From: Caldimonas caldifontis
GTDB taxonomy: Bacteria > Pseudomonadota > Gammaproteobacteria > Burkholderiales > Burkholderiaceae_C
Assembly (NCBI RefSeq): GCF_002930615.1
Contig: NZ_PSNX01000003.1
Coordinates: 248,001 to 312,000, forward strand
Length of the DNA: 64,000 nucleotides
Direction: 5' to 3'
In this document: positions 38,884-56,700 of the stretch, in pieces
Numbering within the stretch: the stretch's first letter is position 1
Layout: each line of letters opens with the position of its first letter
Made by a program: the position numbers and the translations under genes
The notes under the pieces: generated by a model
Told to the model about the DNA's origin: nothing
Database searches by the model: none
The model's input: the letters and a program-made list of their open reading frames with translations, nothing else

Positions 38884-39912
38884 ATGTCCGCCGGCTTGCT
38901 CAGCGCCAGCCATCGTCATCGCCTGGGTGCCTTTGCGCGCCCGCAGCGCCGTCCCGCCACCGCCCGGTGGTGGGTGCGCGAGGCCGCCATCATGGGCACG
39001 CGGATCCGCGCTGAGTTGTGGGCCGCGGACGATCGCCTCGCCGAGGTGGCGCTGTCGGCGGTGATGGCCGAGATGCATCGCATCGACGCCGCCATGAGCC
39101 CGCACAAACCCGACTCCGAGCTCTCGCGCATCAATCGCGAGGCCGGCGAGCACCCCGTGCCGCTGAGCGACGAGATGTACGCCCTGGTCGAGCAGGCCCT
39201 GAGCTGGTCCGAGCGCTCCGGCGGGGCCTTCGACATCAGCTATGCGGCCGTGGGGCGGCTGTACGACTACCGCAGCGGTCGCCGCCCCGACGAGGCCCGC
39301 CTGGCGCGCGCTCGCGAGGCGGTCGGCTGGCAGCACCTCGAGCTGGACGCGAGGCAGCGCACGCTGCGCTTCGCGCGCCCGGGCATGTGCATCGACCTCG
39401 GTGGCTTTGCCAAGGGTCATGCGGTCGATGGCGCCGTGGCCCATCTGCAGCGCCTGGGCATCGAGCATGCCATGGTGGCCGCCGGCGGCGACAGCCGGGT
39501 GATCGGTGACCGCCACGGCCGACCCTGGACGGTGGCCATCCGACATCCGCGGCACGAAGGGGCCCCAGCGGCCGTGCTGCCGTTGCAGGACGTGTCGATC
39601 TCCACCTCGGGCGACTACGAGCGCTATTTCATCGATGCCGACGGGGTGCGCCACCACCACCTGATCGATCCGGCCTCGGGCCGTTCGCCCGATCAGGTCC
39701 ACAGCGTCACCGTGATGGCCCCGGACGGGCTTACGAGCGAGGCACTGTCCAAATGTGTGTTCGTGATGGGCGTCGAGCGAGGGCTCGCGCTCGTGGAGGC
39801 CCAGACGGGCGCCGACGCGGTGGTCGTCGACGCGCAGGGGCGTCTGCATGTGTCGGCGGGCCTGCAAGGCGCGGGCGCCGCCCTGGATGAGAAACAAGCA
39901 GTTGTTGTCTGA
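38884..39912 (+). CDS. apbE: ApbE-type FAD:protein FMN transferase, no obvious export signal
   Basis: The 342-residue protein has MGTRIRAELWA, AMSPHKPDSELSRIN, IDLGGFAKGHAVD, MVAAGGDSRVIG, SISTSGDYERYF, HHLIDPASGRSPD and LTSEALSKCVFVMG, the complete ApbE active-site set. It would attach FMN to a Thr of a partner protein. Most ApbE proteins are periplasmic lipoproteins; this one has an Arg-rich N-terminus with no hydrophobic run. GAGGGGGAG precedes the ATG. It is the first gene of the large cluster, 44 bases before the triheme lipoprotein gene. Confidence 0.9.
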   Translation: MSAGLLSASHRHRLGAFARPQRRPATARWWVREAAIMGTRIRAELWAADDRLAEVALSAVMAEMHRIDAAMSPHKPDSELSRINREAGEHPVPLSDEMYALVEQALSWSERSGGAFDISYAAVGRLYDYRSGRRPDEARLARAREAVGWQHLELDARQRTLRFARPGMCIDLGGFAKGHAVDGAVAHLQRLGIEHAMVAAGGDSRVIGDRHGRPWTVAIRHPRHEGAPAAVLPLQDVSISTSGDYERYFIDADGVRHHHLIDPASGRSPDQVHSVTVMAPDGLTSEALSKCVFVMGVERGLALVEAQTGADAVVVDAQGRLHVSAGLQGAGAALDEKQAVVV

Positions 39913-39956: not shown

Positions 39957-42947
39957 ATGAAAACCCACGAGACCCCGATGAGCCTGAGAGTCCTGGCGCT
40001 GATCCTGCCCCTGCTGGGCCTGGCGGCGTGCAGCGGCAGTGACGGTGACGATGTCACCGTCGAAGGCGATGTGGCCATCGCCTATGTGATGCGCTCCAGC
40101 AGCGTGCGCATGGACCCCACCAATGGCAGCCCGTTTGCCCCGGGCGGTGACCTGATGCTGCGCGAGCGCTCCTCACCGAGCGCGCGCGAGATCAACCTCA
40201 CGCGCCGCTTCACACAAGGGGTGGGCGACGCGTCCGACCCCGAGGTGTCCTATGACGGCAAGAAGATCGTCTTCTCGATGCGCTGCCCTGCGAGCAACAC
40301 CGCCACGATCAACGGTCAGCCGGCCTGCACGGGCCGATGGAACATCTGGGAATACGACATGACGTCGGGCGGGCTCACGGGCGGCACCTTCCGGCGCATC
40401 ACCGATTCCACCGAGCACGACGACGTCGATCCCTACTACCTGCCGGCCGGCCGCGGCTTCGTGTTTGCGTCGAACCGCCAGGCCAAGTCCTCGCAGGACC
40501 AGGCCCTGGGCCGCCGCTACTTTGCGCTGGACGAGTACGAGCGCGAGCGCGTGCTCAACATCCACACCATGGATGCCAACGGCGGCAACATCCAGCAGAT
40601 CTCCTTCAACCAGAGCCACGACCGCAACCCCGTGGTGCGGCCCAACGGCGACATCATGTACTCACGCTGGGAGCACATGGCCGATCGCAACCGCTTCGCG
40701 ATCTTTCGCTCCAAGCCTGACGGCACCGACACCTTCGTCCTCTACGGCGCCCACAGCCCGGGCAACAGCTTCCTGCACCCGCGCGACATGGACCCGTCGG
40801 GCCCCTACGCCGGCTTCCTGGCCTCCTCGCTGATGCCGCTGCAGCGCACCGACGAGGGCGGCGCCCTGATGTTCGTCGACGCAGCCAACTACTCCGAGCA
40901 GAACACCCCGGCCAACAGCACCGTGCCCACCCAGGGCGGCCAGGTGCAGGTGACGGCACAGGAGCTGAACATGGACCGCGGCCTGTCGCTGCATGGCCGC
41001 GTCACCACCCCCTACCCGCTGTGGGATGGCACCAACCGCGTGCTGCTGGCCTATCGGCCCTGTGAAGTCACGCGTGCCGGGCGCACGGTGTCTTGCGCCA
41101 CGCTCACGACGGCGGAGATTCAGCGGCTGTCCGATCGCCAGCGCACGATGGAGGCCGTGGCCGAGGATGAGCTGCAGGACAACGTCCCGCCCAACTACGC
41201 CATCTACATGTTCAACCCGGCCAACCAGACCTGGCGCCACGTGGCGACCCCGCCGGCGGGCTACATGTACACCGACCCGATCGCGCTGCAGGCCCGTCGC
41301 GAGCCCCAGGCCAGCGACCCGACCAACGTGGACACCGCCCTGGCCGAGCGTGGCATGGCCCTGATCGAGGTGCGCAGCATCTACAACACCGACCGTCTGG
41401 GTCGCATGGCCGAGATGATGATCGTGCCCGACGACCTCCCGCCGGGTTGCGCCCGCGGCATCGCGATGACCGCCAACACCGACCCGACCAGCACCGCCAC
41501 CCAGGTGGCCGACCTGCTGGCGATCAAGGACCCGGCCAACCCGGCCTACCACTGCACGCCGGTGCGCTTCGTGCGTGCCACGCGGGCCATCCCCCCGCCG
41601 TCCTCGTCGATGGGCCTGCGCCAGGCCATCGGCGAGACCGACTTCGAGCAGCAGCAGATCCTCGGCTACGCGCCCATCGAGCCCGATGGCTCCTTCAAGC
41701 TGGAGATCCCGGCCGACATCCCGCTGGCGCTCGCCGTGGTCGATGCCGAGGGCCGCGCCTTCCAGACGCACGCCAACTGGATCCAGGTGCGCCCGGGTGA
41801 GCGCCGCACCTGCAACGGTTGCCACAGCCCGCGCCGCGGCGCGTCGTTGAATTCCGGCCTGGTGGTCGACACCCAGCCCGCCGCCTTGCTCCCGGCCATG
41901 GCCGCGGCTCACGAGTCCGGCCAGACCATGGCGTCCACCCGGACCCGTCTCGATCCGGCCGCCCTGAGGCTCGTGACCGACATGCTCTACACCGATGTGT
42001 GGGCCGACACCTCGCGACCGGGCGTCACCGCACGGGCGCCCATCATCGTGCGCTACACCGGCAACCCCGACCCGGCCAACGACCTGGCGACGCCGGCGCC
42101 CGTGAACGGCGTGATCAACTACCCCGAGCACATCCAGCCGCTGTGGGAGCGCACCCGCGCGGCGGGCTCCTGCGTGTCCTGCCACAGCGACCCGACACGC
42201 CTGGACCTGCGCGGCACGATCGGCGGGACCGGGCGCATGACCTCCTACGAGGAGCTGCTCGTGGGCGACCCCCTGCTGGACAGCGCGGGCCAGCCGGTCA
42301 CCCGCATCCGCGACGGCGTGCCCATGCTGGAACGCCAGCCGCCGCGCGTGCAATCCAGCTCGAGCGCGGCCAACACCGCCGGCATTGCCCGCAAGAGCCG
42401 CCTCACCGAGATCCTCTTCGGGCACACCTTGCTGGCCGGCAGCGGCCCGCGTGCGATCTACCCCACGCCCTCGGGCAGCGCACCCAACCACGCCACGATG
42501 CTCAACGCAGCCGAAAAGCGCCTGCTGGCCGAGTGGATGGACCTGGGGGCCCAGTACTACAACGACCCGTTCAACGGGGCCAGTGGGGTGCGCACCGTGC
42601 AGACGCTGAGCGAAGCCGCCTTCGAGGCCACCGTGCAGCCCGTGCTGCAGGCCCAGTGCGCAAGCTGCCATCAGGCCGGGGCCGGCATCCCCGGCGCGTC
42701 CCTGGGTGATGCGCTCGCCGTGAGCTTCTCGGGCAACCGCTACGTGCTCACCGGGGTCACCGAGGGCGATTTCAACGTGACGCTCACCCTCATCAACGAC
42801 ACCTGCAACCCGGCGAACAACCTCTTGCTGTCGCGCCCGTCCACGGCACCTCATCCGGCCGGGGGTACCGGCGGGGCGGTGCTGCCGGTGGGCAGCCCGG
42901 GCTATACGGCCATTGCCAACTGGATTCGATCAGGCTGCAACCCATGA
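39957..42947 (+). CDS. Triheme lipoprotein related to hydrazine synthase subunit A
   Basis: The 996-residue protein has a lipobox (LAAC, Cys25), so it is probably anchored in the outer membrane. Residues 40-400 contain propeller-type repeats (SYDGKKIVFSMR, AGRGFVFASNRQ, RPNGDIMYSRWEH). Three c-type heme motifs follow: CNGCH (619), CVSCH (739) and CASCH (901). This propeller plus C-terminal heme layout is that of HzsA-related proteins, which are widespread outside anammox bacteria and uncharacterised. Hydrazine synthesis itself is unlikely because HzsB and HzsC are absent. The hemes require the ccm system encoded in the same cluster. Confidence 0.75.
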   Translation: MKTHETPMSLRVLALILPLLGLAACSGSDGDDVTVEGDVAIAYVMRSSSVRMDPTNGSPFAPGGDLMLRERSSPSAREINLTRRFTQGVGDASDPEVSYDGKKIVFSMRCPASNTATINGQPACTGRWNIWEYDMTSGGLTGGTFRRITDSTEHDDVDPYYLPAGRGFVFASNRQAKSSQDQALGRRYFALDEYERERVLNIHTMDANGGNIQQISFNQSHDRNPVVRPNGDIMYSRWEHMADRNRFAIFRSKPDGTDTFVLYGAHSPGNSFLHPRDMDPSGPYAGFLASSLMPLQRTDEGGALMFVDAANYSEQNTPANSTVPTQGGQVQVTAQELNMDRGLSLHGRVTTPYPLWDGTNRVLLAYRPCEVTRAGRTVSCATLTTAEIQRLSDRQRTMEAVAEDELQDNVPPNYAIYMFNPANQTWRHVATPPAGYMYTDPIALQARREPQASDPTNVDTALAERGMALIEVRSIYNTDRLGRMAEMMIVPDDLPPGCARGIAMTANTDPTSTATQVADLLAIKDPANPAYHCTPVRFVRATRAIPPPSSSMGLRQAIGETDFEQQQILGYAPIEPDGSFKLEIPADIPLALAVVDAEGRAFQTHANWIQVRPGERRTCNGCHSPRRGASLNSGLVVDTQPAALLPAMAAAHESGQTMASTRTRLDPAALRLVTDMLYTDVWADTSRPGVTARAPIIVRYTGNPDPANDLATPAPVNGVINYPEHIQPLWERTRAAGSCVSCHSDPTRLDLRGTIGGTGRMTSYEELLVGDPLLDSAGQPVTRIRDGVPMLERQPPRVQSSSSAANTAGIARKSRLTEILFGHTLLAGSGPRAIYPTPSGSAPNHATMLNAAEKRLLAEWMDLGAQYYNDPFNGASGVRTVQTLSEAAFEATVQPVLQAQCASCHQAGAGIPGASLGDALAVSFSGNRYVLTGVTEGDFNVTLTLINDTCNPANNLLLSRPSTAPHPAGGTGGAVLPVGSPGYTAIANWIRSGCNP

Positions 42948-43564
42948 GTCCTGCGCTAGCCACCCTTCGCCGTGCCGGCCGCTGGGCGCCGGTGGCCACC
43001 TTGCTGCTGGCGTCCTGCGGCGGAGGCTCCAATCCCCTGGACAACCCGCCGGTGGTGAGCAACCCGCCGGGCGAGGGCGGGCAGCGCCTGTCCTTCGTGT
43101 ACTTCCAGAAGTGCGTCAACCCCATCTTCCTGGCCCAGCTCCCGGTCAACCAGAACGGCAGCATCTCGCTCAACACCTGCGCGAGCTCGGGCTGCCACGA
43201 CGACCGCGCCGGCACCGGAGGCGCCTTCCGGGTGGTGCCCGAAGCCCAGGAGGTCGACCTCTCGGATGCGGCCAATACACCCGACGTCGTGCGAGACACG
43301 CCGATGTACCGCAACTTCTACTCCTCGCAGGGGGAGGTGGTCTTGGGTGCGCCGCTGCAGAGCCGCCTGCTCACCAAGCCCATGGTGCTCAACGTGCTGC
43401 ACGGCGGTGGCCTCATCTTCCAGGACGAGAACGACCCGAATGTGCGCCTGATCCGCTACTGGATCAGCCGCCCCATGCCCGAGGGCCAGGACGAATTCAG
43501 CGCGGCGGCCAACAGCATGTTCACGCCGCCCGATCCCGAGACCGGCACTTGCAACACCGAATGA
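42944..43564 (+). CDS. Lipoprotein with a CX4CH heme-like motif
   Basis: The 206-residue protein has a lipobox (LLAS-Cys25), a Pro-rich linker and the segment NTCASSGCHDD (residues 77-87). The motif CASSGCH is a CX4CH pattern, a known but uncommon variant of the c-heme attachment site. The rest has no match that I recognise. It overlaps the triheme gene by four bases (ATGA) and the next gene by four bases. It may be an electron partner or a small subunit of the triheme protein. Confidence 0.7.
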   Translation: MSPALATLRRAGRWAPVATLLLASCGGGSNPLDNPPVVSNPPGEGGQRLSFVYFQKCVNPIFLAQLPVNQNGSISLNTCASSGCHDDRAGTGGAFRVVPEAQEVDLSDAANTPDVVRDTPMYRNFYSSQGEVVLGAPLQSRLLTKPMVLNVLHGGGLIFQDENDPNVRLIRYWISRPMPEGQDEFSAAANSMFTPPDPETGTCNTE

Positions 43565-44361
43565 GCCTTCCGATGCCGTTTGCAGTACCTGGGCGCCGGA
43601 TGCGTGCGCAGCTTCTCCTGGCCTGTGGCCTGAGCCTGGCGGCCGCGGTGCCGGCCATGGCCCAGGTCAGCGCCGTGGCAGCCGACGATGGCTATGAGCG
43701 CGTGCAGGTCGCCGACCCCTACATCGAGTTCCGCACCGGCCCTGGCCGCGGCTACCCCATCTTCCATGTGGTGGACCGGCACGAGTGGATCGCCATCACG
43801 CTGCGCCAGACCGACTGGTACCAGGTGCGCGCGGAAAACGGCAAGGAAGGATGGGTGCACCGCCGCCAGCTCGAACGCACGCTCACCGCCGCCGGCAGCG
43901 AGCGGACCTTCCGCGACATCGTGCTCGACGACTACCTGAGCCGGCGCCTGCTGGCGGGCGGCAGCTGGGGTCGTTTCGACGGCGAGCCCATGCTCAAGCT
44001 CACCGCCGCCTACCGGCTGTCCACCTCGCTCAGCCTGGAGGGGCATGTGGGCCAGGTGCAGGGCACCTTCTCGGGCACGAGCTTCTGGCACCTGGGTCTG
44101 GCCGCCGAGCCCTGGTCCGACCGCCGCCTTTCGCCCTTCTTCAGCGTGGGCGTGGGGCGCTTCTCCAACGTGCCCAACAGCAGCCTGGTGAGCGCCATCC
44201 GCACCGACGCCAACCTGGGGCAGGCCACCCTGGGCCTGCGTTGGCACCTGAGCGAGCGCTTCATGCTCACCGCCGACTACAGCCTGTACACCGCCTTCGT
44301 CGCCGACGAACGCTCCATCGAATACCGGGCCTTCACCGCCGGCCTGGCCTTCTTCTTCTGA
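43561..44361 (+). CDS. SH3-domain outer-membrane beta-barrel protein
   Basis: The 266-residue protein has a signal peptide (ending AMAQ), a bacterial SH3 domain (residues 45-105: IEFRTGPGRGYPIFHVVDRHEW and GWVHRRQLE) and a C-terminal half of alternating amphipathic strands that ends in LAFFF. A terminal Phe is the usual outer-membrane barrel signal. SH3 domains of this type often bind peptidoglycan, so the protein could link the cell wall to the outer membrane. It overlaps the preceding gene by four bases. Confidence 0.75.
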   Translation: MSLPMPFAVPGRRMRAQLLLACGLSLAAAVPAMAQVSAVAADDGYERVQVADPYIEFRTGPGRGYPIFHVVDRHEWIAITLRQTDWYQVRAENGKEGWVHRRQLERTLTAAGSERTFRDIVLDDYLSRRLLAGGSWGRFDGEPMLKLTAAYRLSTSLSLEGHVGQVQGTFSGTSFWHLGLAAEPWSDRRLSPFFSVGVGRFSNVPNSSLVSAIRTDANLGQATLGLRWHLSERFMLTADYSLYTAFVADERSIEYRAFTAGLAFFF

Positions 44362-44373: not shown

Positions 44374-45042
44374 ATGCCTTCCAAGCACGCCCTTCATCCC
44401 TGGCTCACCGTGGCCCTGCTGGCCGCGGCCCTGCTGCTCACCCCGCTGCTGGCCACCGCTCAGGCCAGCGAGCCCCAGCGCCCGGCCAACGAGCAGGTCA
44501 TCGTGCCCGAGGTCGAGCGCCGCGAAGTGCGCCTGCCCCGCATCCCCTCCAAGGACATCATCGCCGGGCTCTTCACGGGCATCTACTCCACCGACAGCTT
44601 CGGCGCGAGCCCCGTGGTGGGCGTGCGGCTGGGCTACCACCTCACCGAAGACTTCTTCTTCGAGGCGGCCTACGGCCGGGCGCGTGTCAGCGACGAGTCC
44701 TTCCGACGCATCCTGCCCGGCGGCGTGTTCGCGAGCGAAAAGTCCACCCTCACCTACTACAACGTCTCGCTGGGCTACAACATCCTGCCCGGCGAGGTTT
44801 TCCTGGGATCCAAGCGCGCCAAGGCCACCGTCACCTACCTGATCGCCGGCATCGGCAGCACCGAACTCGACGACCAGCGCAACCAGACCCTCAACATCGG
44901 CCTGGGCACCCGCTTCCTGCTCGGCCAGCGCTCGGCCCTGCAGCTCGACTTGCGCGACCACATCTTCTCCTTCGACCTGCTGGGCGAACGCCGCAGCACC
45001 CACAACCTCGAGCTCACGCTGGGCCTGAGCTTCTTCTTCTGA
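44374..45042 (+). CDS. Outer-membrane beta-barrel protein (OMP_myx_plus-like)
   Basis: The 222-residue protein has a signal peptide (ending ATAQ), a charged linker, and eight or so amphipathic strands (GVRLGYHLTEDFFFEAAYG, STLTYYNVSLGYNIL, NLELTLGLSFFF). It ends in Phe. The composition matches the small barrel family named after Myxococcus (TIGR04565 type), but this is from memory. It lies 12 bases after the SH3-barrel gene. Confidence 0.7.
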   Translation: MPSKHALHPWLTVALLAAALLLTPLLATAQASEPQRPANEQVIVPEVERREVRLPRIPSKDIIAGLFTGIYSTDSFGASPVVGVRLGYHLTEDFFFEAAYGRARVSDESFRRILPGGVFASEKSTLTYYNVSLGYNILPGEVFLGSKRAKATVTYLIAGIGSTELDDQRNQTLNIGLGTRFLLGQRSALQLDLRDHIFSFDLLGERRSTHNLELTLGLSFFF

Positions 45043-45074: not shown

Positions 45075-45575
45075 ATGCACCTGATCCCCACCCTCCGTCA
45101 CCTCGCCGCCCTGGCCGCCTTGTGCCTCGCCATCCCGGCTCTGGCCGCGCAGCCGAACGCGCCCGCCCCCGACTTCACGCTGAGCACGCTCAAAGGCTCG
45201 AACATGCGCCTGCAGGAGCAGCGCGGCAACGTGGTGCTGGTGAACTTCTGGGCCACCTGGTGCGGCCCCTGCCGCGAAGAGATGCCCCATCTCAACCGCC
45301 TGTATGACAAGTACCGCGCCCTCGGTTTCACCGTGATGGCCGTGAGCATCGACGACGACCCGGCCAAGGCCGCCAGCATGGCGTCCAAGCTGGGCCTGAA
45401 CTTCCCGGTGCTCTTCGATGCCGACAAGAAGGTGAGCCGCCAGTACGACCTCAAGGCCATGCCCTACACCGTGATCGTCGATCGCGACGGGCGGGCGCGG
45501 CATCTGCATCGCGGCTACCAGAGTGGCTACGAGAACCTCTATGAACAGCAGATCCGCGCCTTGCTGAAGGAATGA
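45075..45575 (+). CDS. TlpA-type periplasmic thioredoxin
   Basis: The 166-residue protein has a signal peptide (ending ALAA), the segment APDFTLSTLKGSNMRLQEQRG and the redox motif WCGPC (Cys63 and Cys66), then the cis-Pro region KAMPYTVIVD. TlpA and ResA proteins reduce disulfides in heme-binding or copper-binding proteins. Lying between the cytochrome genes and the Cys-tailed DUF4266 gene, it probably serves one of them. A second thioredoxin, CcmG, is at the end of the cluster. Confidence 0.92.
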   Translation: MHLIPTLRHLAALAALCLAIPALAAQPNAPAPDFTLSTLKGSNMRLQEQRGNVVLVNFWATWCGPCREEMPHLNRLYDKYRALGFTVMAVSIDDDPAKAASMASKLGLNFPVLFDADKKVSRQYDLKAMPYTVIVDRDGRARHLHRGYQSGYENLYEQQIRALLKE

Positions 45576-45586
45576 GGACCATGACG

Positions 45587-45802
45587 ATGCGCTGCCTTCC
45601 CGTCCTGGCCCTGGCCGTGCTGCTGTCGGCCTGTGCGACCGAGCCCTGGGTCAAGCCCTACGAGCGCGAGCGCCTGGCCGACCCGATCATGCAGGTGCAT
45701 CGCGATGCCCTCTCGGCCCGCCACACCGAACACGTGCGCGAGGTGCGCGAGGGCGGCCGCGGTGGCAACGGCGTGCAAGGAGGCGGTTGTGGCTGCAACT
45801 GA
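45587..45802 (+). CDS. DUF4266 small lipoprotein with Cys-Gly-Cys tail
   Basis: The protein has about 71 residues, with a lipobox (LSAC, Cys16), EPWVKPYERERLADPIMQ, the DUF4266 core, and a Gly-rich tail ending GGCGCN. The CGC tail looks like a metal or disulfide site. Three ATG codons (45572, 45581 and 45587) are possible; the last has AGGA eight bases upstream, while the first overlaps the tlpA stop. DUF4266 genes usually stand next to DUF3570 genes, as here. Function is unknown. Confidence 0.8.
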   Translation: MRCLPVLALAVLLSACATEPWVKPYERERLADPIMQVHRDALSARHTEHVREVREGGRGGNGVQGGGCGCN

Positions 45803-46949
45803 GACCACCTGCCCCATCGGCCACCGAAGGGCGCGCTGGCTGCGCGGCTTCATGGCCCAGTGGCGCATGCGCACCCCGCGCGCGCTGCGCGCGGCCGGCC
45901 TGGCGGCCCTGGCTGCCGGGTCGGCGCAGGCCGTCACCCTGCCCGAGGACAAGGCCGAAGCCCTCTACCACCTCTATGACGGCGGCGGCACGCGCGCCTA
46001 CGGGCCGGCCCTGCTGGTGCGCAAGAGCATGGCCGATCGCGTGTCCCTCTCGGCCTTCTACAACGTCGACGCGGTGAGCAATGCCTCCATCGACGTGGTC
46101 ACCACCGCCAGCCCCTACTCCGAGCGGCGCACCGAGTACGGCCTGGGGCTCGACTATGTCTACCGCGACTCGCTGATGTCGCTGTCCACCACCCGCAGCA
46201 CCGAACCCGACTACGAGGCCAACTCCGTCGGCATCGATGTCTCGCAGGACGTCTTCGGCGGCATGACCACCGTGAGCCTGGGCTTCACCCGCGCCTGGGA
46301 CAAGGTGGGCCGCTCCGACGTGGGCTTCTTCGACGAGGCCCTGCACTGGCGCTACCGCCTGGGCGTCACCCAGATCCTCACACCGCGCTGGATCGCCAGC
46401 CTCAACGCCGAGGTGGTGTCCGACAGCGGCTACCTCGGCAACCCGTATCGTGTGGCACGGGTCTTCGGCGCGGCCGTGCCCGAACGCAACCCCCGCACGC
46501 GCACCAGCCGGGCGATCAAGGGCCGCGTCACGGGGGCCATCGGCAGCGAGGCCGCGGTGCATGCCGAGTACCGCTACTTCTGGGACACCTGGGACATCAC
46601 CGCCCACACCGTGGAAGTGGGCTACAGCCGCTATGTGCGCGAAGACACGCTGGTCGACGGCTTCCTGCGTTACCACAGCCAGTCCAAGGCCCTGTTCTAC
46701 AGCGACAACGCCACGGCCGAGACCACCTACATCTCGCGCAGCCGCCAGCTCAGCACCTTCAACTCGCCCTCGGTGGGGGTGAAGCTCAGCTACCGCGCCA
46801 AGCGGGTGCCCGGACAGTACGAGCTCAAGGCCCACGCGGCCTACGAATACAAGCTCTACAACTTCAAGGACTTCACCGACATCCGCACCGGCCGGCCGTA
46901 CTCGTACAACGCCAACGTGTTCCAGGTCTACCTGTCGGCCACCTTCTGA
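45789..46949 (+). CDS. DUF3570 outer-membrane protein
   Basis: The 386-residue protein contains repeated amphipathic strands (RVSLSAFYNVDAVSNASIDVVTTASPY near residue 80, GLGLDYVYRDS, TVEVGYSRYVRED) and ends VYLSATF, consistent with a large outer-membrane barrel of the DUF3570 family. The start is the GTG at 45789, which has AAGGAGG five bases upstream and overlaps the DUF4266 gene by 14 bases. The N-terminus has a late hydrophobic segment ending SAQA. The role is unknown; DUF3570, DUF4266, TlpA and ApbE genes tend to occur together (from memory). Confidence 0.85.
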   Translation: MAATETTCPIGHRRARWLRGFMAQWRMRTPRALRAAGLAALAAGSAQAVTLPEDKAEALYHLYDGGGTRAYGPALLVRKSMADRVSLSAFYNVDAVSNASIDVVTTASPYSERRTEYGLGLDYVYRDSLMSLSTTRSTEPDYEANSVGIDVSQDVFGGMTTVSLGFTRAWDKVGRSDVGFFDEALHWRYRLGVTQILTPRWIASLNAEVVSDSGYLGNPYRVARVFGAAVPERNPRTRTSRAIKGRVTGAIGSEAAVHAEYRYFWDTWDITAHTVEVGYSRYVREDTLVDGFLRYHSQSKALFYSDNATAETTYISRSRQLSTFNSPSVGVKLSYRAKRVPGQYELKAHAAYEYKLYNFKDFTDIRTGRPYSYNANVFQVYLSATF

Positions 46950-46961: not shown

Positions 46962-47513
46962 ATGAGAGCCACCATGCCGTACCGACACCTCCTTCGCTTC
47001 CTGACGGTCGCCCTCGGCCTCGCAGCCGGCCTCGCCTGGGCCAATCCCAGTGCTGCTCCCGCCCCGGCTGCCTCACTGGACGACCGCGTGCAGACGCTCA
47101 AGAACGACCTCATCCAGCTCAACCGCGACCTCCTCGTGCTCGAGGAAGAGCTGCTGTTCCCGGCCAGCACCCAGGTGGCCGTGTTCGTGTCGATGGACGT
47201 GGGCAAGCTCTTCGAGCTGGAGTCGGTGCAGATCAAGCTGGGCGACAAGCTCGTGGCCAGCCACCTGTACACGCCGGCGGAAGTGCAGGCCCTGCACCGC
47301 GGCGGCGTGCAGCGCCTGTACCTGGGCAACCTGCGCACCGGCACCCACGAGCTGGTGGCCATCTTCACCGGTGGCGGCCCGCACCAGCGTGACTACCGGC
47401 GCGGCGCCACGGTCAAGTTCGACAAGGGGGCCGACCCCCAGTACATCGAGCTGCGCATCCAGGACTCCGCCGGCAAGCTGCAGCCCGAGTTCAACGTGAA
47501 GGTCTGGCAGTAA
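46962..47513 (+). CDS. Periplasmic coiled-coil protein, unrecognised family
   Basis: The 183-residue protein has a signal peptide (ending LAWA), a coiled coil (DDRVQTLKNDLIQLNRDLLVLEEELL, about residues 38-64) and a beta-rich domain (QVAVFVSMDVGKLFELESVQIKLGDKLVASHLYT, HELVAIFTGGG). I cannot name the family. The start could also be the ATG at 46974. It lies between the DUF3570 and TPR genes with gaps of 12 and 10 bases, so it is probably a component of the envelope complex. Confidence 0.7.
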   Translation: MRATMPYRHLLRFLTVALGLAAGLAWANPSAAPAPAASLDDRVQTLKNDLIQLNRDLLVLEEELLFPASTQVAVFVSMDVGKLFELESVQIKLGDKLVASHLYTPAEVQALHRGGVQRLYLGNLRTGTHELVAIFTGGGPHQRDYRRGATVKFDKGADPQYIELRIQDSAGKLQPEFNVKVWQ

Positions 47514-47523: not shown

Positions 47524-49473
47524 ATGCGTCTCCGATCCCTGGCCCCCCGTTCCTGGCGTCGTGTGCTGTGCACCGGCGTGGCGGTGGCCGTGCTCAGCCT
47601 GGGCGCTGGCGCGCAGACCACGCGCGGTCCCGGCCCCGTGAAAGACCCGCACTACGGCGACGGGCTCTTCCACTTTTTCCAGGACCACTACTTCACCGCG
47701 CTGACCACGCTGATGGTCTCGCAGCACTTCGAGCGGGTGCCCCAGCACGCCGACGAGGCCGAGATCCTGCGTGGCGGCATGCTGCTCTCGTACGGCCTGC
47801 ACCGCGAGCCCGGGCGCATCTTCGAGACGCTCATCGAGCAGGGCGCCCGCCCCTCGGTGCGCGACCGCGCCTGGTACTACCTGGCCAAGATCCGCTACCA
47901 GCGCGGCTACCTCGACGAGGCCCAGGCCGCGCTCGACCGCATCGGCCAGGACCTGCCCGCCGAGTTCCGTGAAGACCACGCCCTGCTGCGCGCCCAGGTG
48001 CTGATGGCCCGCGAACAGTACGCCCAGGCCGCCACGCTGCTGCGCGAACAGGTCGAGGCCAGCCGCGCCCAGGCCCGCCGCAGCGACCCCGAGCCTGCGA
48101 TGCGCGCCGCCTATGCGCGCTACAACCTCGGCGTGGCGCTGATCCGCAACAACGAGACCGAGGCCGGCACCCGCTGGCTCGACGAGATCGGCAAGGCCGG
48201 TGCCAACAGCGAGGAATACCGCGTGCTGCGCGACCGGGCCAACGTGGCCCTGGGCTTTGCCGCACTCCAGGCCGAACAGCCGAAACAGGCGCGCCAGTTC
48301 CTCGAGCGGGTGCGCCTGCACGGTCCGCAGTCGAACAAGGCGCTCCTCGGTTTCGGCTGGGCCGCGGCCTCGCTCGACCAGCCCCGCGAGGCCCTGGTGC
48401 CCTGGATGGAGCTGGCCGGCCGCGAGGGCGATAACGCCGCCGTGCTCGAAGCCCGCATTGCCGTGCCCTATGCGCAGGCCGAGCTCGGCGCCTTGGGCCT
48501 GGCGCTGCAGGGCTACCAGGACGCGATCGCCGCCTACGAGCGCGAGCACGCCGCGCTGGACGAATCCATCGCGGCCATCCGCGCCGGCAAGCTGGTCGAG
48601 GGCCTGATGTCGCTCAACCCCGGTGTGGAGATGGGCTGGTTCTGGCAGCTGCGCGAGCTGCCGCAGATGCCGCATGGCAGCCACCTGGCCCAGGTGCTGG
48701 CCCGCCACGACTTCCAGGAGGCCTTCAAGAACTACCGTGACCTGCAGTTCCTGGCCGACAACCTCGCCCAGTGGCGCGACAAGCTCGCAGCCTTCCACGA
48801 CATCCTGGAACACCGCAAGCAGGCCTTTGCCGACCGGCTGCCACGCATCCAGGCCGCTGCGCGCGAAAGCGAAACCGGCGTGGCCGCACTGCAGCGCCGG
48901 CGCGATGCCGTGCAGGCCGAGCTCGACCGCGTGATCGCACAGCGCGATGCCGCCGCCCTGGCCACGCCCAGGGAGCGCGAGCTGCTGGAGCGCCTGGCCC
49001 GCGTGCGCGAAACCCTTGCGCGGGTGGGCGATGCGCCCGAGGCGGCACCCCTGCGCGAGCGCCATCGCCTGGCCGAAGGCGTGTTGCGCTGGACGCTCGA
49101 TGAAGACTATCCCGTGCGCCTGTGGGAGGCCCGCAAGGCCCAGCGCGTGGTGGACGAACAGTTGGCCCGCGCGCAGGAGCGCGAGGCCGCCCTGGCCCAG
49201 GCCCAGCGTGACGAACCCGCACGCTTCGCCACCTTCGAAGGCCGCATCCCGGCCCTGGGGGCGCGCATCGAGGCCCTCGCCCCGCGCGTGGCCGAACTCA
49301 CCCGCGAGCAGCAGCAGGCCGTCGAGGCCCTGGCCGTGGCCGAACTCACCCGCCAGCAGCAACGCCTGGCGGCCTATGCGACCCAGGCCCGTTTTGCCGT
49401 GGCCCAGCTGTATGACCATGCCACCCGTGCGCCGGGCGGTGCACAGGAGCGATCCGATGCGGCACCGCGCTAG
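47524..49473 (+). CDS. Periplasmic TPR/coiled-coil protein
   Basis: The 649-residue protein has a signal peptide (ending GAGAQ), a TPR-rich half (residues 60-330: WYYLAKIRYQRGYLDEAQAALDRIG, ANVALGFAALQAEQPKQARQFLERV) and a coiled-coil half (430-630, rich in Arg, Glu, Ala and Gln). It probably spans or scaffolds the periplasm. No enzyme motif is visible. It overlaps the next TPR lipoprotein gene by 17 bases. Roles similar to those of the TPR components of the Myxococcus Glt/Nfs complexes are inferred from gene order only. Confidence 0.75.
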   Translation: MRLRSLAPRSWRRVLCTGVAVAVLSLGAGAQTTRGPGPVKDPHYGDGLFHFFQDHYFTALTTLMVSQHFERVPQHADEAEILRGGMLLSYGLHREPGRIFETLIEQGARPSVRDRAWYYLAKIRYQRGYLDEAQAALDRIGQDLPAEFREDHALLRAQVLMAREQYAQAATLLREQVEASRAQARRSDPEPAMRAAYARYNLGVALIRNNETEAGTRWLDEIGKAGANSEEYRVLRDRANVALGFAALQAEQPKQARQFLERVRLHGPQSNKALLGFGWAAASLDQPREALVPWMELAGREGDNAAVLEARIAVPYAQAELGALGLALQGYQDAIAAYEREHAALDESIAAIRAGKLVEGLMSLNPGVEMGWFWQLRELPQMPHGSHLAQVLARHDFQEAFKNYRDLQFLADNLAQWRDKLAAFHDILEHRKQAFADRLPRIQAAARESETGVAALQRRRDAVQAELDRVIAQRDAAALATPRERELLERLARVRETLARVGDAPEAAPLRERHRLAEGVLRWTLDEDYPVRLWEARKAQRVVDEQLARAQEREAALAQAQRDEPARFATFEGRIPALGARIEALAPRVAELTREQQQAVEALAVAELTRQQQRLAAYATQARFAVAQLYDHATRAPGGAQERSDAAPR

Positions 49474-52282
49474 CCTCCTGCCCCCGCTGCTGATCCTGGC
49501 CGCCGCGCTGGCGGCCTGCTCGGGGCCGCGCAAGGGCAGCCCCGACAACGAGCCCACGCTCAGGAGCCTGGCCGGGCGCAAGGTGGAGCTGCCGGCCGAC
49601 CCGGGCATCCGCAGCACCGAAGAGCAGACCATCGCGGCCTACCAGAAATTCCTGGACGTGGCCCCCAGGGCGCCGCAGCGCGCCGAAGCCATGCGCCGCC
49701 TGGGCGACCTGGAGATGGATCTGGCCGACCGTCGCATGGCCGAGGGCACGGCCGCGGGGACCGAGGCCGACTTCCGCGCGGCCATCACCCGCTACCAGGA
49801 CTACCTGCGCGCCTACCCGAAGGCGCCCGACACCGACCGCGTGCTCTACCAGCTGGCCCGCGCCCATGAACAGGGCGGCCAGCTCGAACAGGCCCTGGCC
49901 GTGCTCGACCGCCTGGTGGCCGCCTACCCTGACACGGCCACACGCGACGAGGCCCACTTCCGCCGCGGCGAGATCCTCTTTGCCGCCACGCGCTACCCGC
50001 AGGCCGAAGAAGCCTACACCGCCGTGCTGGCCAGCGGCGACGACACGCCCTACCGCGAGCGTGCGCTCTACATGCAGGGCTGGTCGCGCTTCAAGCAGGC
50101 CCGGCTGGACGAAGCCCTGGCGTCCTTCTTCGGCGTGCTCGACCTCGCGCTCGCAGGCCGCGGCGGCGAGGCCGGGCTCGATGGCATCGAAGGCCTGTCG
50201 CGTGCCGAGCGCGAGCTGATCGAGGACACCTTCCGCGTGGCCAGCCTGTCGCTGGCCAACCTGCAGGGCGCGGAATCCATCCCCCCCTACATCGACAGCG
50301 AGCTGCGCCGCGGCTACGAATTCCGCGTCTATGAGCAGCTCGCCGAGCTTTATCTGCAGCAAGAGCGAGTCAAGGACGCCGCCGACACCCTGGGCGCCTT
50401 CGCCCGCCGCCAGCCGCTGCATGCGCAGGCGCCGGTGCTGCAGGCCCGCGTGATCGACATCTACCAGGCCAATGGCTTTGCCACGCTGGCACTCGAAGCC
50501 AAGAAGGAATACGTGGGCCGCTACGGCGTGGACAGCGAGTTCCGCCGCGCCAGCCCCGAGGGCTGGGAGCGCGCGCAGCCGCTGGTCAAGACCCACCTGA
50601 GCGAACTGGCCCGCCACTACCACGCCAGCGCGCAGAAGACCAAGGCCTCGGCCGACTACCAGGAGGCCGTGCGCTGGTACCGCCTCTACCTGGTGTCTTT
50701 CCCCGATGATCCGCAGGCACCGCAGAACCACTTCCTGCTGGCCGAGCTGCTCTTCGAGGACAAGCGCCACGCCTACGCCGCGGTCGAGTACGAAAAGACC
50801 GCCTACGGCTACCCGCAGCACGCGCGCAGCGCCGATGCCGGCTACTCCGCCCTGCTGAGCTATGCCGAGTTGCAGAAGGCCGCACGGCCCGAGCAGGTCA
50901 CGCCGCTCAAGCGCGAGGCCGTGGAAAGCAGCCTGCGCTTTGCCAAGGCCTTCCCCGCCGACCCGCGCACCGGTGCCGTGCTCACGAACGCTGCCGACAC
51001 CCTGTTTGCGCTGAACGACGCCGAGCGCGCCGAAGCCGTGGCTCAGCAGGTGCTGGCCCTGCAGCCGCCGGCCACCGACGCACAGCGCCGGGTGGCCTGG
51101 ACCGTGCTGGCCCACACCGCCTTCGACGGCGGGCGCTTCGACATCGCCGAACGCGCCTATGGCGAAGTGCTGGTGCTCACGCCCGCACAGGCCGCCGGCC
51201 GCAACGAACTGGTCGAACGTCAGGCCGCGGCCATCTACAAGCAGGGCGAGGCCGCGCGCGACGCCGGCCGGGCCCGCGAGGCCGTGGGCCACTTCGAGCG
51301 CATCGCCCAGTTGGCGCCGCAGTCGGCCGTGCGCGCCACGGCCCAGTACGACGCTGCCGCCGTGCTCATCGGCCTGAAGGACTGGGACGCGGCGGCCCGC
51401 TCGTTGGAGGCCTTCCGCCAGCAGCATCCCAAGCACCCGCTGCAGGCCGACGTTCCCGCCAAACTGGCCACGGTCTATCTCGAACAAGGCCACTGGGCGC
51501 AGGCGGCCGGCGAATTCGAACGCGTGGCCGCCACCCACCGCGACCCGGCCGTGGCCCGCGAGGCCCAATGGCAGGCCGCCGAGCTGCACCAGAAGTCCAC
51601 CGAACGCGGCGCCTCGCGGGGGGCCGCCACGCGCGCCTACGAGCGCTACCTGCAGCAGCACCCGCAGCCGCTGGAGCGTGCGGTGGAGGCGCGTTATCGC
51701 CTGGCCCAATTGGCCAAGGCCGACGGCAACGCCGCGCGCGAACAGCACTGGATGCGTGAGGTGATGCTGGCCGACCAGCGCGGTGGCAACGCCCGCACCG
51801 ACCGCACCCGCTTCCTGGGCGGCGCGGCCGCGCTGGCCCTGGCCCAGCCCAGCTACGAGGCCTACCGCCAGGTTGCGCTGGTCGAGCCGCTGGACCGCAA
51901 CCTGCGCCTCAAGCGCCAGCGCATGGAGGCCGCGCTCAAGGCCTATGGGGCGGCGGCCGAGTACGGCGTGGCCGGCGTCACCACCGCGGCCACCTACTAC
52001 ACGGCGGCGATCTACGAAGACTTCGGCAGCGCCATGCTCAAGTCACAGCGCCCGCGCCGCCTGTCCAAGCTGGAGCTGGAGCAGTACGAGGTGATGCTGG
52101 AAGAGCAGGCCTTCCCCTTCGAGGAAAAGGCCATGGAGCTGCACGAGATCAACGCCCAGCGCACCAGGGCCGGCATCTACGACGAATGGGTGCAGCGCAG
52201 CTTCGCCGCGCTGGCCAAGCTGCGGCCGGTGCGCTATGGCAAGAGTGAGAAGAGTGAAGGAGCGATCGATGCGATCCGCTGA
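49457..52282 (+). CDS. Large TPR lipoprotein (GltE-like)
   Basis: The 941-residue protein has a lipobox (LAAC, Cys21) and many TPR units along its length (YQLARAHEQGGQLEQALAVLDRLVAAYP, YRERALYMQGWSRFKQARLDEALASF, AAIYKQGEAARDAGRAREAVGHFERIAQLAP). The ATG at 49457 has AGGAG seven bases upstream; the frame continues upstream inside the preceding gene but not as a real N-terminus. It is likely outer-membrane anchored and periplasmic. GltE of Myxococcus is also a large TPR lipoprotein, but direct homology needs a search. Confidence 0.75.
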   Translation: MRHRASLLPPLLILAAALAACSGPRKGSPDNEPTLRSLAGRKVELPADPGIRSTEEQTIAAYQKFLDVAPRAPQRAEAMRRLGDLEMDLADRRMAEGTAAGTEADFRAAITRYQDYLRAYPKAPDTDRVLYQLARAHEQGGQLEQALAVLDRLVAAYPDTATRDEAHFRRGEILFAATRYPQAEEAYTAVLASGDDTPYRERALYMQGWSRFKQARLDEALASFFGVLDLALAGRGGEAGLDGIEGLSRAERELIEDTFRVASLSLANLQGAESIPPYIDSELRRGYEFRVYEQLAELYLQQERVKDAADTLGAFARRQPLHAQAPVLQARVIDIYQANGFATLALEAKKEYVGRYGVDSEFRRASPEGWERAQPLVKTHLSELARHYHASAQKTKASADYQEAVRWYRLYLVSFPDDPQAPQNHFLLAELLFEDKRHAYAAVEYEKTAYGYPQHARSADAGYSALLSYAELQKAARPEQVTPLKREAVESSLRFAKAFPADPRTGAVLTNAADTLFALNDAERAEAVAQQVLALQPPATDAQRRVAWTVLAHTAFDGGRFDIAERAYGEVLVLTPAQAAGRNELVERQAAAIYKQGEAARDAGRAREAVGHFERIAQLAPQSAVRATAQYDAAAVLIGLKDWDAAARSLEAFRQQHPKHPLQADVPAKLATVYLEQGHWAQAAGEFERVAATHRDPAVAREAQWQAAELHQKSTERGASRGAATRAYERYLQQHPQPLERAVEARYRLAQLAKADGNAAREQHWMREVMLADQRGGNARTDRTRFLGGAAALALAQPSYEAYRQVALVEPLDRNLRLKRQRMEAALKAYGAAAEYGVAGVTTAATYYTAAIYEDFGSAMLKSQRPRRLSKLELEQYEVMLEEQAFPFEEKAMELHEINAQRTRAGIYDEWVQRSFAALAKLRPVRYGKSEKSEGAIDAIR

Positions 52283-52928
52283 CCGCCTCTTCGCGATCCT
52301 CGCTGCGGCCGCCCTGGGCGGGTGTGCCACGGTCAGCCTCGACGCACCGCCCGTGGCGCCGCCTCCCGCGGCGGCGGCAGCGCCGGCACCTGCCCCGGCG
52401 GCCCCGCCGGCGCCGCCGGCCGTGGACCCGGCCGCGCAGCGGGCCTTCGACGAAGCCCGTCGCCAGCTGGTGGCCGGCCGCGGCGATCTGGCACAGCGCG
52501 GCTTCGAAGCCCTCACACGCAGCCACCCTGATCTGCCCGGCCCCCACGCCAACCTGGGCCTCATGGCCCGCCAGGCCGGCCGCCTGGACGAGGCGGCCCA
52601 GGCGCTGGAGACCGCCACGCGGCTGGGTCCGAAGCAGCCGGCCTACTGGAACCAGCTGGGCATCACCTACCGGCAGCAGGGCCGATTCGCGCAGGCGCGC
52701 GAAGCCTACGAGCGCGCGCTGGACGCCGACGCCGACTACGCCCCCGCGGTGCTCAACCTGGGCATCCTGCACGACCTCTACCTCGGCAATGCGGCCCAGG
52801 CCCTGGGCCTGTACGAGCGCTACCTGAGCCTCGTGCCCGGCGGCGACGCCGAGGTGAACAAATGGGTCATCGACCTCAAGAACCGCAAGCCGGCCCCTGT
52901 GGCCGCGAACCAGAAGGAGCCGCGATGA
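52269..52928 (+). CDS. TPR lipoprotein
   Basis: The 219-residue protein has a lipobox (LGGC, Cys19), an Ala/Pro-rich linker (residues 25-58) and three TPR units (PGPHANLGLMARQAGRLDEAAQALETATRLGP, PAYWNQLGITYRQQGRFAQAREAYERAL). AAGGAG precedes the ATG, which overlaps the previous stop by 14 bases. It is the third TPR gene in a row and probably part of the same complex. Confidence 0.8.
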   Translation: MRSADRLFAILAAAALGGCATVSLDAPPVAPPPAAAAAPAPAPAAPPAPPAVDPAAQRAFDEARRQLVAGRGDLAQRGFEALTRSHPDLPGPHANLGLMARQAGRLDEAAQALETATRLGPKQPAYWNQLGITYRQQGRFAQAREAYERALDADADYAPAVLNLGILHDLYLGNAAQALGLYERYLSLVPGGDAEVNKWVIDLKNRKPAPVAANQKEPR

Positions 52929-53263: not shown

Positions 53264-53923
53264 ATGAACACCTTCGAATTCATCGTCAAGTTCGTGCAGG
53301 ACAGCGGTGCCTTCATCTACATCAGCATGCTGATCATGGCGCTGGGCGTGGCCATCGCCATCGAGCGCTACACCTTCCTGCGCCGTGCCCGCGCCCAGAA
53401 CAAGAAGCTGTGGGCCAAGCTGCTGCCCATGCTGCAGAACGGCAAGTTCAAGGAGGTCTATGGCCTGGCCGCCGACTCCGACGCGGCCATCGGCAAGATC
53501 GTGGCCAACGGCCTGCAGCGCATGCAAAGCCCGAGCCGCCGCGAGGACATCGACGCCGCGATGGAAGAAGGCATGATGGAGATCGTGCCGCGCCTGGAAA
53601 AGCGCACCCACTACATCGCCACCTTCGCCAACGTGATCACGCTGGTGGGCCTGCTGGGCACCATCGTGGGCCTGATCAAGGGCTTCACCGCGGTGGCGCA
53701 GGTCAACCCGGCCGAAAAGGCCGAGATGCTGTCGGCCTCGATCTCGATCGCGATGAACAACACCGCCTTCGCGCTGATGGTGGCCATCCCCTTCCTGCTC
53801 ATCCACGCCTTCCTGCAGGCGCGCACCAGCGAGATCGTCGACGGACTGGAGGCCGCCAAGATCAGCTTCCTCAACCTCGTGCAGCGCGCGAAGTCCGAAG
53901 CCGCCACGCCGGCCACGAAGTGA
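53264..53923 (+). CDS. MotA/TolQ/ExbB proton-channel protein
   Basis: The 219-residue protein has three membrane helices: FIYISMLIMALGVAIAIERYTF, ANVITLVGLLGTIVGLIKGF and SIAMNNTAFALMVAIPFLLIHAF. The GLLGTIVGLI and NNTAFALMVAIP motifs are those of ExbB/TolQ/AglR channels. With two ExbD-type partners it forms a proton-driven motor in the inner membrane. GGAGAG precedes the ATG. It is followed directly by two exbD genes and a TonB-like gene, the gene set also used by AglRQS with AgmX/GltJ in Myxococcus. Confidence 0.93.
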   Translation: MNTFEFIVKFVQDSGAFIYISMLIMALGVAIAIERYTFLRRARAQNKKLWAKLLPMLQNGKFKEVYGLAADSDAAIGKIVANGLQRMQSPSRREDIDAAMEEGMMEIVPRLEKRTHYIATFANVITLVGLLGTIVGLIKGFTAVAQVNPAEKAEMLSASISIAMNNTAFALMVAIPFLLIHAFLQARTSEIVDGLEAAKISFLNLVQRAKSEAATPATK

Positions 53924-54457: not shown

Positions 54458-54958
54458 ATGAAACTCACCCCGTTGCAGAAACGCGCCGAGCGCAAGGCGC
54501 GCAACCAGTCGAACGTCGACCTGAACCTGGTCGCGCTGATCGACATCTTCACCATCCTGCTGTTCTTCCTGCTGTCGGCCGCCTCGGGCATCGAGATCCT
54601 CTCGGCACCCAAGGGCGTGAAGCTGCCGCAGTCCACGGCCGAGACCGCACCGCGTGAAACCGTGGTGGTGGTCATCAGCCCCGAGGACATCCTGGTCGAA
54701 GGCCGCCGCGTGGCGACCGTGGCGCAGGCGATGAACACCCCGGGCGACCTCATCGCCCCGCTCCAGGCCGAGCTCGACGGGATCGCCAGCCGCCAGGTGG
54801 TCCGCGCCGAGAACGCCGCCCAGGGCCGCACCCTCACCATCATGGGCGACAAGGACATCCCCTACGCCCTGCTGCGCAAGGTGATGGCCACGGCCGCGCG
54901 GGCCAATTTCGCCGACGTGTCTTTTGCGGTGACCCGAAAGTACGAGGTGTCGTCATGA
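54458..54958 (+). CDS. ExbD/TolR-type protein with intact Asp
   Basis: The 166-residue protein has a charged N-terminus, one membrane helix (NLVALIDIFTILLFFLLSAASG) with the conserved Asp29, and a periplasmic domain containing TVVVVISPEDILVEGRRV. It should carry protons in the motor with ExbB. It starts nine bases after the first ExbD gene, and its stop overlaps the TonB-like gene by four bases. Confidence 0.92.
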   Translation: MKLTPLQKRAERKARNQSNVDLNLVALIDIFTILLFFLLSAASGIEILSAPKGVKLPQSTAETAPRETVVVVISPEDILVEGRRVATVAQAMNTPGDLIAPLQAELDGIASRQVVRAENAAQGRTLTIMGDKDIPYALLRKVMATAARANFADVSFAVTRKYEVSS

Positions 54959-56690: not shown

Positions 56691-56700
56691 AGGCTCGGCC

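Follow-up and report, generated by a model that had tools for sequence, protein, structure and literature searches.

An HzsA-like triheme lipoprotein within a conserved DUF3570/ApbE and Glt/Agl-like gene cluster of Caldimonas caldifontis

What does a relative of the hydrazine synthase subunit HzsA do in a bacterium outside the anammox group? The question is raised by a gene of Caldimonas caldifontis located in a 64,000-nucleotide stretch of DNA (contig NZ_PSNX01000003.1, positions 248,001 to 312,000), which we call the window. A preliminary description had proposed a lipoprotein with three CxxCH motifs. Its reading frame of 996 amino acids is present as described (Table 1), with a lipobox, LAAC, near residue 25 and CxxCH motifs at the proposed residues 619, 739 and 901. 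What that description missed is the setting of the protein, a conserved DUF3570/ApbE and Glt/Agl-like cluster, and this setting is the real interest of the locus. With moderate confidence, we propose that the cluster encodes a heme/flavin module for electron transfer at the outer membrane, coupled to a motor of the Glt type.

Table 1. Genes and heme motifs of the HzsA-like locus, in window coordinates
Feature	Position	Strand	Evidence or remark
ApbE flavin transferase	38986..39912	+	PF02424, 272 bits; conserved core, open frame starts at 38746
HzsA-like triheme lipoprotein	39957..42947	+	996 aa; lipobox, HzsA/TolB-like propeller, HZS_alpha domain, heme motifs 619/739/901
Heme motif 1, CNGCH, residues 619-623	41811..41825	+	HzsA heme alpha-I site; Arg at Tyr591 position; coordinates from residue number
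Heme motif 2, CVSCH, residues 739-743	42171..42185	+	Place of HzsA heme alpha-II; candidate distal ligand His845; coordinates from residue number
Heme motif 3, CASCH, residues 901-905	42657..42671	+	Added C-terminal cytochrome domain; coordinates from residue number
Small lipoprotein, one C-x4-CH motif	42944..43564	+	Overlaps HzsA-like stop codon
SH3 domain and outer-membrane beta-barrel protein	43600..44361	+	PF08239 above cut-off; PF13505 23.8 bits, below cut-off 28.7
Outer-membrane beta-barrel protein, OMP_myx_plus	44374..45042	+	TIGR04565, 156.9 bits, cut-off 60
TlpA/ResA-like thioredoxin	45075..45575	+	PF08534, PF00578
DUF4266 small lipoprotein, C-terminal CxC	45572..45802	+	PF14086, 75.4 bits
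DUF3570, predicted 16-strand outer-membrane barrel	45867..46949	+	PF12094, 125 bits; motifs; model
Conserved exported protein, 183 aa, no family match	46962..47513	+	Candidate extra gene of beta/gamma core complex
TPR-like exported protein, 649 aa	47524..49473	+	GltC-like, inferred from length and place
TPR lipoprotein	49457..52282	+	GltD-like, inferred from length and place
Small TPR protein, GltE-like	52236..52928	+	Weak NF033758 GltE match, 32 bits, cut-off 225
TolQ/ExbB-type motor protein, AglR-like	53264..53923	+	PF01618, 91 bits
ExbD/TolR-type protein 1	53954..54448	+	PF02472
ExbD/TolR-type protein 2	54458..54958	+	PF02472
GltG-like TonB linker, AgmX/PglI C-terminal domain	54955..56091	+	NF033768, 66.3 bits, cut-off 40
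Cytochrome c maturation system I: ccmA, ccmB-ccmC-like fused frame, ccmE, ccmF, ccmG, ccmH, ccmI	56088..62267	+	

The protein matches the HZS_alpha profile PF18582 with 70.3 bits (cut-off 26.6), and its AlphaFold2 model (pTM 0.87) contains a propeller predicted with high confidence. In the comparison with the HzsA crystal structure that the preliminary description had suggested, the whole fold, propeller included, matches chain 5c2v_A of Ca. Kuenenia stuttgartiensis (Foldseek E 1.9e-29; VIA Z 35.0, 608 aligned residues, rmsd 3.8, model residues 36-880). The next-best structural matches are TolB propellers, with Z of about 26-27. In the Tol-Pal system TolB docks to the motor, and genes for TolQ, ExbD and TonB-like proteins are present in the cluster, so the HzsA-like protein might be mainly structural, its propeller docking to this motor and its hemes vestigial or stabilizing. 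We regard this reading as very doubtful, because propellers are matched readily (those of the unrelated LRP and megalin reach Z 22-24) and the heme motifs are strictly conserved.

This conservation was assessed in an alignment of 73 rows drawn from 86 frames: 71 relatives and the window's own gene, present twice. Length excluded the other 13 frames (L058, L022, L070, L073, L075, L084, L085, L087, L004, L005, L008, L009 and L010). Motifs 1 and 2 are invariant throughout, and motif 3 is C-x2-CH or C-x3-CH in all 72 rows that cover its region, so the motifs are not a product of chance. Six non-heme cysteines (110, 124, 369, 380, 498 and 533) are also invariant.

The proposal that the protein has the layout of HzsA relatives holds for the fold, the HZS_alpha domain and the CxxCH motifs at the alpha-I and alpha-II places. 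It does not hold for the triheme arrangement: HzsA itself has two hemes, and the third is thus an addition. By sequence, the HzsA middle domain is the region closest to the window protein. The EWIDLGAQ segment near the HzsA C terminus aligns to residues 820-871 of the window protein (803-867 in profile numbering). Because this segment follows residue 739 and precedes residue 901, the motif at 739 occupies the place of HzsA heme alpha-II. The motif at 901 belongs to an extra C-terminal cytochrome domain. In the alignment His845 corresponds to HzsA His772 (chain His745), which suggests a bis-His heme alpha-II with this residue as the distal ligand; it is kept in at least 90% of alignment A1 and in 21 of 21 wider relatives. 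HzsA residues are numbered with a chain offset of +27, derived from alignments and PMC12758564.

The heme alpha-I site differs from that of HzsA. The proximal ligand there, Tyr591, is Arg in the window protein; it is replaced in 73 of 73 close rows, and none of 21 wider relatives has Tyr at this position. The score against the full-length HzsA equivalog NF052339 is 63.5 bits, far from the cut-off of 800. In partial agreement with the earlier statement that HzsB, HzsC and anammox genes are absent, no match to Hzs partners or to CCP/MauG occurs among 28 plus-strand frames scanned at 33952-63892. With Tyr591 replaced, partners unseen among the scanned genes and this low score, we do not class the protein as a hydrazine synthase, an identity that is very unlikely. 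A reaction other than hydrazine synthesis, as had been anticipated, is probable.

The protein itself might catalyze such a reaction: heme I would act on a small molecule such as a nitrogen oxide or peroxide, and the role of the other two hemes and the flavins would be limited to electron supply. This is possible, though less than probable. The similarity to HzsA is greatest in the middle domain, and the CHSPRRG sequence around motif 1 is identical in 73 of 73 rows, stricter than the surroundings of the other two motifs. The first heme is also retained in 21 of 21 wider class relatives, although the residues after the motif vary. However, such invariance fits an electron-transfer interface equally well, the HzsA proximal ligand is absent from all aligned relatives, and no HzsC-like partner is found among the cluster genes scanned.

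HzsA homologues outside anammox bacteria are already in print (PMC12758564, PMC10732223), the latter reporting hzs-like genes, so that the earlier label of an unexplored outer-membrane cytochrome is only partly true; what stands is that we found no published report with this gene setting. Hagglund et al. 2025 (PMC12758564) divide non-anammox HZS-alpha homologues into clades I-IV, picked for a co-located beta-gamma gene. As in the window family, the heme alpha-I motif of clades I-III occurs without Tyr591, and the published homologues are not expected to make hydrazine. In contrast to these clades, of which clade I lacks His772, the window family has His at this position, a third heme, and DUF3570 and Glt neighbors. 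Members of the family may be among more than 600 unnamed structural hits of the same study, which also notes that Cys303, an HzsA zinc ligand, is not universal among anammox bacteria. Our literature search found no paper that joins non-anammox HzsA homologues, DUF3570 clusters and the Glt core, each of which was published separately.

ApbE, DUF3570, a thioredoxin-like protein and DUF4266 with its CxC occur together in the window, and these are the four components of the flavinylation clusters of Meheust et al. 2021 (PMC8238504). The window cluster differs from these in its altered flavinylation motifs, in the addition of the HzsA-like cytochrome and extra barrels, and in having no DsbD among the scanned genes. 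The terms 'hydrazine' and 'HzsA' have 0 occurrences in the main text of that article. The DUF3570 protein, from a family of ApbE substrates, is modelled as a barrel, in which 16 strands were counted. Instead of two [S/T]GA[S/T] motifs it has SNAS and TTAS (in DAVSNAS and DVVTTAS), located at and within the loop between strands 3 and 4, and these keep the Asp, the Ala and the acceptor Ser. The model places this loop on the odd side, which in outer-membrane barrels is normally extracellular. The strict form of the first motif occurs in 5 of 84 linked DUF3570 rows, and the motif Gly is kept in 20 of 20 unlinked DUF3570 proteins sampled, mostly the highest-scoring, from 82 unpaired places. Locus L121 yielded no ApbE, TlpA or DUF4266, and its DUF3570 has lost the first motif, while the second retains Asp, Ala and Ser. 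The cluster ApbE is the sole one found in the genome (one match), and a genome search gave no match to FMN_bind or DUF2271. By eye, ApbE N termini show no signal peptide in the window and seven Burkholderiales loci, and show one in four gammaproteobacterial loci (L120, L122, L124 and L133). Flavinylation of DUF3570 is likely despite the altered motif and the apparent absence of a signal peptide from the ApbE of this clade.

Farther downstream are genes for a TolQ-type protein, two ExbD-type proteins and a GltG-type linker, all matched above cut-off (PF01618, PF02472 twice, NF033768). Two of the TPR proteins resemble GltC and GltD in length and order, and the sole match to a Glt protein among the TPR proteins is the weak one to GltE. 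The Glt/Agl core complex that Luciano et al. 2011 (PMC3169522) describe in beta- and gammaproteobacteria likewise has a TolQ-type protein, two ExbD-type proteins, a GltG-like linker and TPR proteins, plus one extra gene outside the myxobacteria, for which the 183-amino-acid protein is a candidate. In the window, by contrast, these genes are linked to a heme/flavin outer-membrane module; 'cytochrome' has 0 occurrences in the main text of the cited article. A scan of 33000-63000 for RNA families returned nothing.

The linkage recurs in other genomes. In 78 loci kept from 93 relatives, each gene from ApbE through the 649-amino-acid protein occurs wherever the contig extends far enough, with counts from 75/75 (ApbE) to 59/59. 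Named strains among them include Methylibium rhizosphaerae, Rubrivivax albus, Caldimonas mangrovi and Rhizobacter sp. Root1238. The window's whole gene order through ccmI recurs in L072/L163 and L011/L164.

Within the window's class, a draw of 369 genomes has HZS_alpha at 66 places in 57 genomes; two of the match lists used hold the stronger matches and stop before their weak ends. DUF3570 lies 2.8-5.1 kb downstream on the same strand at 46 of the 66 places. The remainder comprises a low-scoring group without the DUF3570 link (15 places) and five strong places whose contig has no DUF3570 within 12 kb. A score-defined strong set, which leaves out the low-scoring group, covers 51 places in 50 genomes. 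All 50 have DUF3570, partly by choice, since the score cut was made after the pairing was seen; a paired DUF3570 is found in 45 of the full 57 HZS_alpha genomes. A Glt-type linker occurs in 48 of the 50 genomes versus 37 of 319 others, counts that are uncorrected for relatedness. It lies within 25 kb of HZS_alpha at 24 of 51 strong places, in three different arrangements, and the same contig has no such linker at the other 27. For ApbE, 47 places were considered, namely 46 from the strong set of 51 and G264, and only 22 of them have the gene within 10 kb of HZS_alpha. HZS_alpha is sparse in the window's own order (6 of 300 genomes). Twenty class loci were chosen from the strong places for long contigs and variety, with G264 coming from the order draw.

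In the proposed electron-transfer module, the HzsA-like protein would be an outer-membrane c-type cytochrome built from a TolB-type propeller, the HZS_alpha middle domain, a bis-His heme domain and the third, C-terminal heme domain. Its partners would be the C-x4-CH lipoprotein and the DUF3570 barrel, and the barrel probably bears one or two FMN groups attached by the cluster ApbE. Electrons could pass between the periplasm, where c-type cytochromes or TlpA/DUF4266 thiols would exchange them, and the cell surface, by way of the hemes and the flavins on the barrel. The genes scanned include no dedicated electron donor of the inner membrane. The Glt/Agl-like complex, with its TolQ/ExbD motor, TonB-like linker and TPR proteins, may use proton-motive force for assembling, positioning or remodelling the redox complex.

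To our knowledge, gliding is mostly not documented for bacteria with a Glt core of the beta/gamma type. It is tempting to speculate, although we think it rather unlikely, that the original or commonest job of this core in beta- and gammaproteobacteria is to energize a heme/flavin redox machine in the outer membrane and that gliding arose as a later use; the HzsA-like cytochrome and flavin barrel would then form a trans-outer-membrane electron path under a proton-driven motor. The cluster supplies a testable set of partners both for the function of the DUF3570 flavin barrel and for the role of the Glt core where gliding is mostly undocumented. It also gives the widespread HzsA homologues a setting that points away from anammox, and hzsA-like matches in metagenomes should therefore not by themselves be taken to mean anammox.

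The genes ccmA to ccmI directly follow the linker in the window, L072/L163 and L011/L164, and none directly follow it in L118. In a scan of 98 loci, ccm genes are seen in 13, all upstream of the HzsA-like gene, and most of the 78 public loci end short of where a downstream copy would sit. The idea that ccm genes are a fixed part of the cluster is weakened by this varying position. Their presence near the cluster in several loci and the window, together with TlpA and DUF4266 in nearly every locus and the invariant non-heme cysteines of the HzsA-like protein, would also fit a redox quality-control or maturation device, in which TlpA, the DUF4266 CxC and the cytochromes set thiol or heme redox states during assembly of the Glt-like complex. 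This explanation is improbable, because such a task would not require a 16-strand barrel of the flavin type and a lipoprotein with three hemes, and because the ccm genes vary in position. The genome has one ccmF match. Among the class loci, the C-x4-CH lipoprotein is seen solely beside the triheme form of the HzsA-like protein.

The HzsA-like lipoprotein is a real, conserved lipoprotein cytochrome with the HzsA fold, is predicted to lie in the outer membrane, and is encoded within a cluster of heme, flavin and motor genes. As the preliminary description had it, the protein carries a lipobox and three CxxCH motifs, at residues 619, 739 and 901. The lipobox reads LAAC and is directly followed by Ser, which favours outer-membrane placement under the usual Lol rule. 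The protein matches the Pfam HZS_alpha family at 70.3 bits (cut-off 26.6). An AlphaFold2 model, built with an input alignment of 58 window and locus sequences, has a mean pLDDT of 85.1 and a pTM of 0.87. The proposed structural comparison with HzsA yielded a clear fold match: the hydrazine synthase alpha subunit is by far the top solved structure (Foldseek E 1.9e-29; VIA Z 35.0 over 608 residues at 3.8 angstrom for model residues 36-880), followed by TolB propellers (Z about 26-27).

The triheme layout ascribed to HzsA relatives holds only in part. The HzsA chain segment containing EWIDLGAQ falls on residues 820-871; motif 739 therefore stands where HzsA has heme alpha-II, and an added domain holds motif 901. 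The PDB chain residues His560 and His745 of HzsA align with His623 and His845. In the portions of the HzsA literature used here (PMC12758564, PMC12607021), the former paper names chain His560 His587; the numbering is therefore offset by 27, and chain His745 is His772, the distal ligand of heme alpha-II. In a close alignment of 73 rows, of which two come from the window's own gene, heme motifs 1 and 2 never vary, and the third reads C-x2-3-CH in all 72 rows that extend that far. Of the 58 rows in the model alignment, 90% or more have His845, and the aligned residue is His in 21/21 wider relatives. The site of Tyr591, the proximal ligand of heme alpha-I in HzsA, is Arg in the window's protein, inside a CHSPRRG segment invariant in 73/73 close rows; none of the 21 wider relatives has Tyr there. 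The window's protein is almost certainly not a hydrazine synthase.

Features of the window discussed in the text
Feature	Position	Strand	Remark
7TMR-DISM diguanylate cyclase	35729-37717		upstream of the cluster
ApbE	38746-39912
HzsA-like lipoprotein	39957-42947	+	open frame, 996 residues
Glt-core-like genes	46962-56091
Cytochrome c maturation genes	56088-62267		directly after the GltG-like gene; same order in L163 and L164

A scan of public genomes, from which the best 80 of 93 relatives were kept, gave 78 loci, mostly from Burkholderiales or other beta-proteobacteria, with three assigned to Pseudomonadota only and one (L085) to Panacagrimonas. Counting same-strand genes in loci with enough contig, these contain ApbE (75/75), the C4xCH lipoprotein (67/67), an SH3 barrel (65/65), an OMP_myx barrel (63/63), TlpA and DUF4266 (63/63 each), DUF3570 and the 183-aa protein (61/61 each) and the 649-aa protein (59/59), in the window's order. 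In Caldimonas mangrovi (L072/L163) and Aquabacterium sp. A7-Y (L011/L164), the agreement with the window extends further, over the TPR genes, TolQ with two ExbD genes, the GltG-like gene and the ccm set from ccmA to ccmI. The window's genome has one ccmF match. The ccm genes lie upstream instead in 13/98 loci, and only 4/78 public loci have a GGDEF match. Among 20 loci from the class, both small barrels and DUF3570 occur in 20/20, DUF4266 in 19/20, TlpA in 18-19/20, the 183-aa and TPR proteins in 12/20 and TolQ in 10/20; a same-strand ApbE no more than 22 kb away is found in 7/19.

HZS_alpha is sparse in the window's order (6/300 drawn genomes) and occurs in 57/369 genomes drawn from the class. 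A draw from the phylum gave matches in 14/398 genomes, 13 of them in the class, and the sole outsider is below the cut-off. Among the matches listed, DUF3570 is in at least 95/369 class genomes and the GltG-type C-terminal domain exceeds its cut-off in 85/369. DUF3570 lies downstream on the same strand, 2760-5089 bases away, at 46 of the 66 class HZS_alpha places. It is present in 50/50 genomes of the strong set, which is defined by score (51 places above about 52 bits, a cut chosen after the pairing had been seen). Among the matches listed, these genomes have the GltG-type domain in 48/50 cases versus 37/319 for the others (Fisher p close to 3e-34, with no correction for kinship); in class genomes lacking a strong HZS_alpha, it accompanies DUF3570 in 23/45 and is found without it in 14/274. 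At 24/51 strong places, HZS_alpha and the GltG-type gene lie no more than 25 kb apart (same strand: 15 downstream, 2 upstream; opposite strand: 7 upstream). That the two stay close in three different arrangements speaks for a common function. At the other 27 places the HZS_alpha contig carries no GltG-type gene, which is therefore either not linked, lost beyond a contig end or, in two genomes, absent from the matches.

The HzsA-like protein very probably works with DUF3570, and it may, more tentatively, move electrons across the outer membrane. The DUF3570 model (mean pLDDT 90.1) has 16 long strands, counted by hand, and most resembles PelB, AlgE and FadL-type barrels among solved folds (TM about 0.4-0.5). 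Two flavinylation-like motifs lie at and within the loop joining strands 3 and 4, which would face outside under the usual topology of even-stranded barrels. The genome's single ApbE match is the cluster's own. With no FMN_bind or DUF2271 match in the genome, DUF3570 is left as the one recognised type of ApbE substrate found there. The window's motifs, DAVSNAS and DVVTTAS, deviate from the consensus D-x-x-[ST]-G-A-[ST] given in the part of a review consulted (PMC12052999). Across 69 rows, Asp76 and Ser82 never vary, and Asp68, Ala73, Ser74 and Ala81 are at least 90% kept. A strict [ST]GA[ST] first site occurs in only 5/84 DUF3570 rows linked to HZS_alpha; of 20 sampled unlinked proteins, 17 have it and 3 have TGSS. 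Such a change need not abolish flavinylation, since fumarate reductase with Gly changed to Ala keeps about 50% according to the same part of that review. No signal peptide is visible in ApbE of the window or of seven other Burkholderiales loci (L072, L015, L022, L058, L064, L088, L118), although its presumed target is exported, which counts against flavinylation; one is visible in four gammaproteobacterial loci (L120, L122, L124, L133). On balance, we lean slightly towards a flavinylated DUF3570. One class locus (L121, genome G355) showed no TlpA, no DUF4266 and no ApbE close by, and its DUF3570 lacks the first motif, a possible natural co-loss; two ApbEs are on other contigs of that genome.

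The Glt-core-like genes fit, by domain and order, the beta- and gammaproteobacterial core described in the consulted part of a 2011 paper (PMC3169522) as GltC, D, E and G with AglRQS, of unknown function, and one extra gene without myxobacterial homologs. The AgmX/PglI C-terminal domain is the one Glt-specific model to exceed its cut-off in the window. The motor probably acts on the same machine as the HzsA-like protein, a reading held with moderate confidence. Non-anammox HzsA homologs, clusters with DUF3570 and the Glt core have each been published separately; searches of an open-access library showed no report joining them.

Of the 20 class loci (L118-L137), 6 encode triheme and 14 diheme proteins. 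By BLAST, the C4xCH lipoprotein is in the same 6 triheme loci and in 0/14 diheme loci, which often have instead a nearby PSD2-like monoheme cytochrome (tblastn match in 11/14) and a Laminin_G_3-domain diheme lipoprotein. At two diheme-type loci (L158, 14134-19534; L160, 170-5606), these two proteins form a trio with a third, whose start is twin-arginine-like and which matches no family. Genome G015, from the same order as the window, has four lower-scoring HZS_alpha places, none adjoining DUF3570, which represent a different HzsA-like group.
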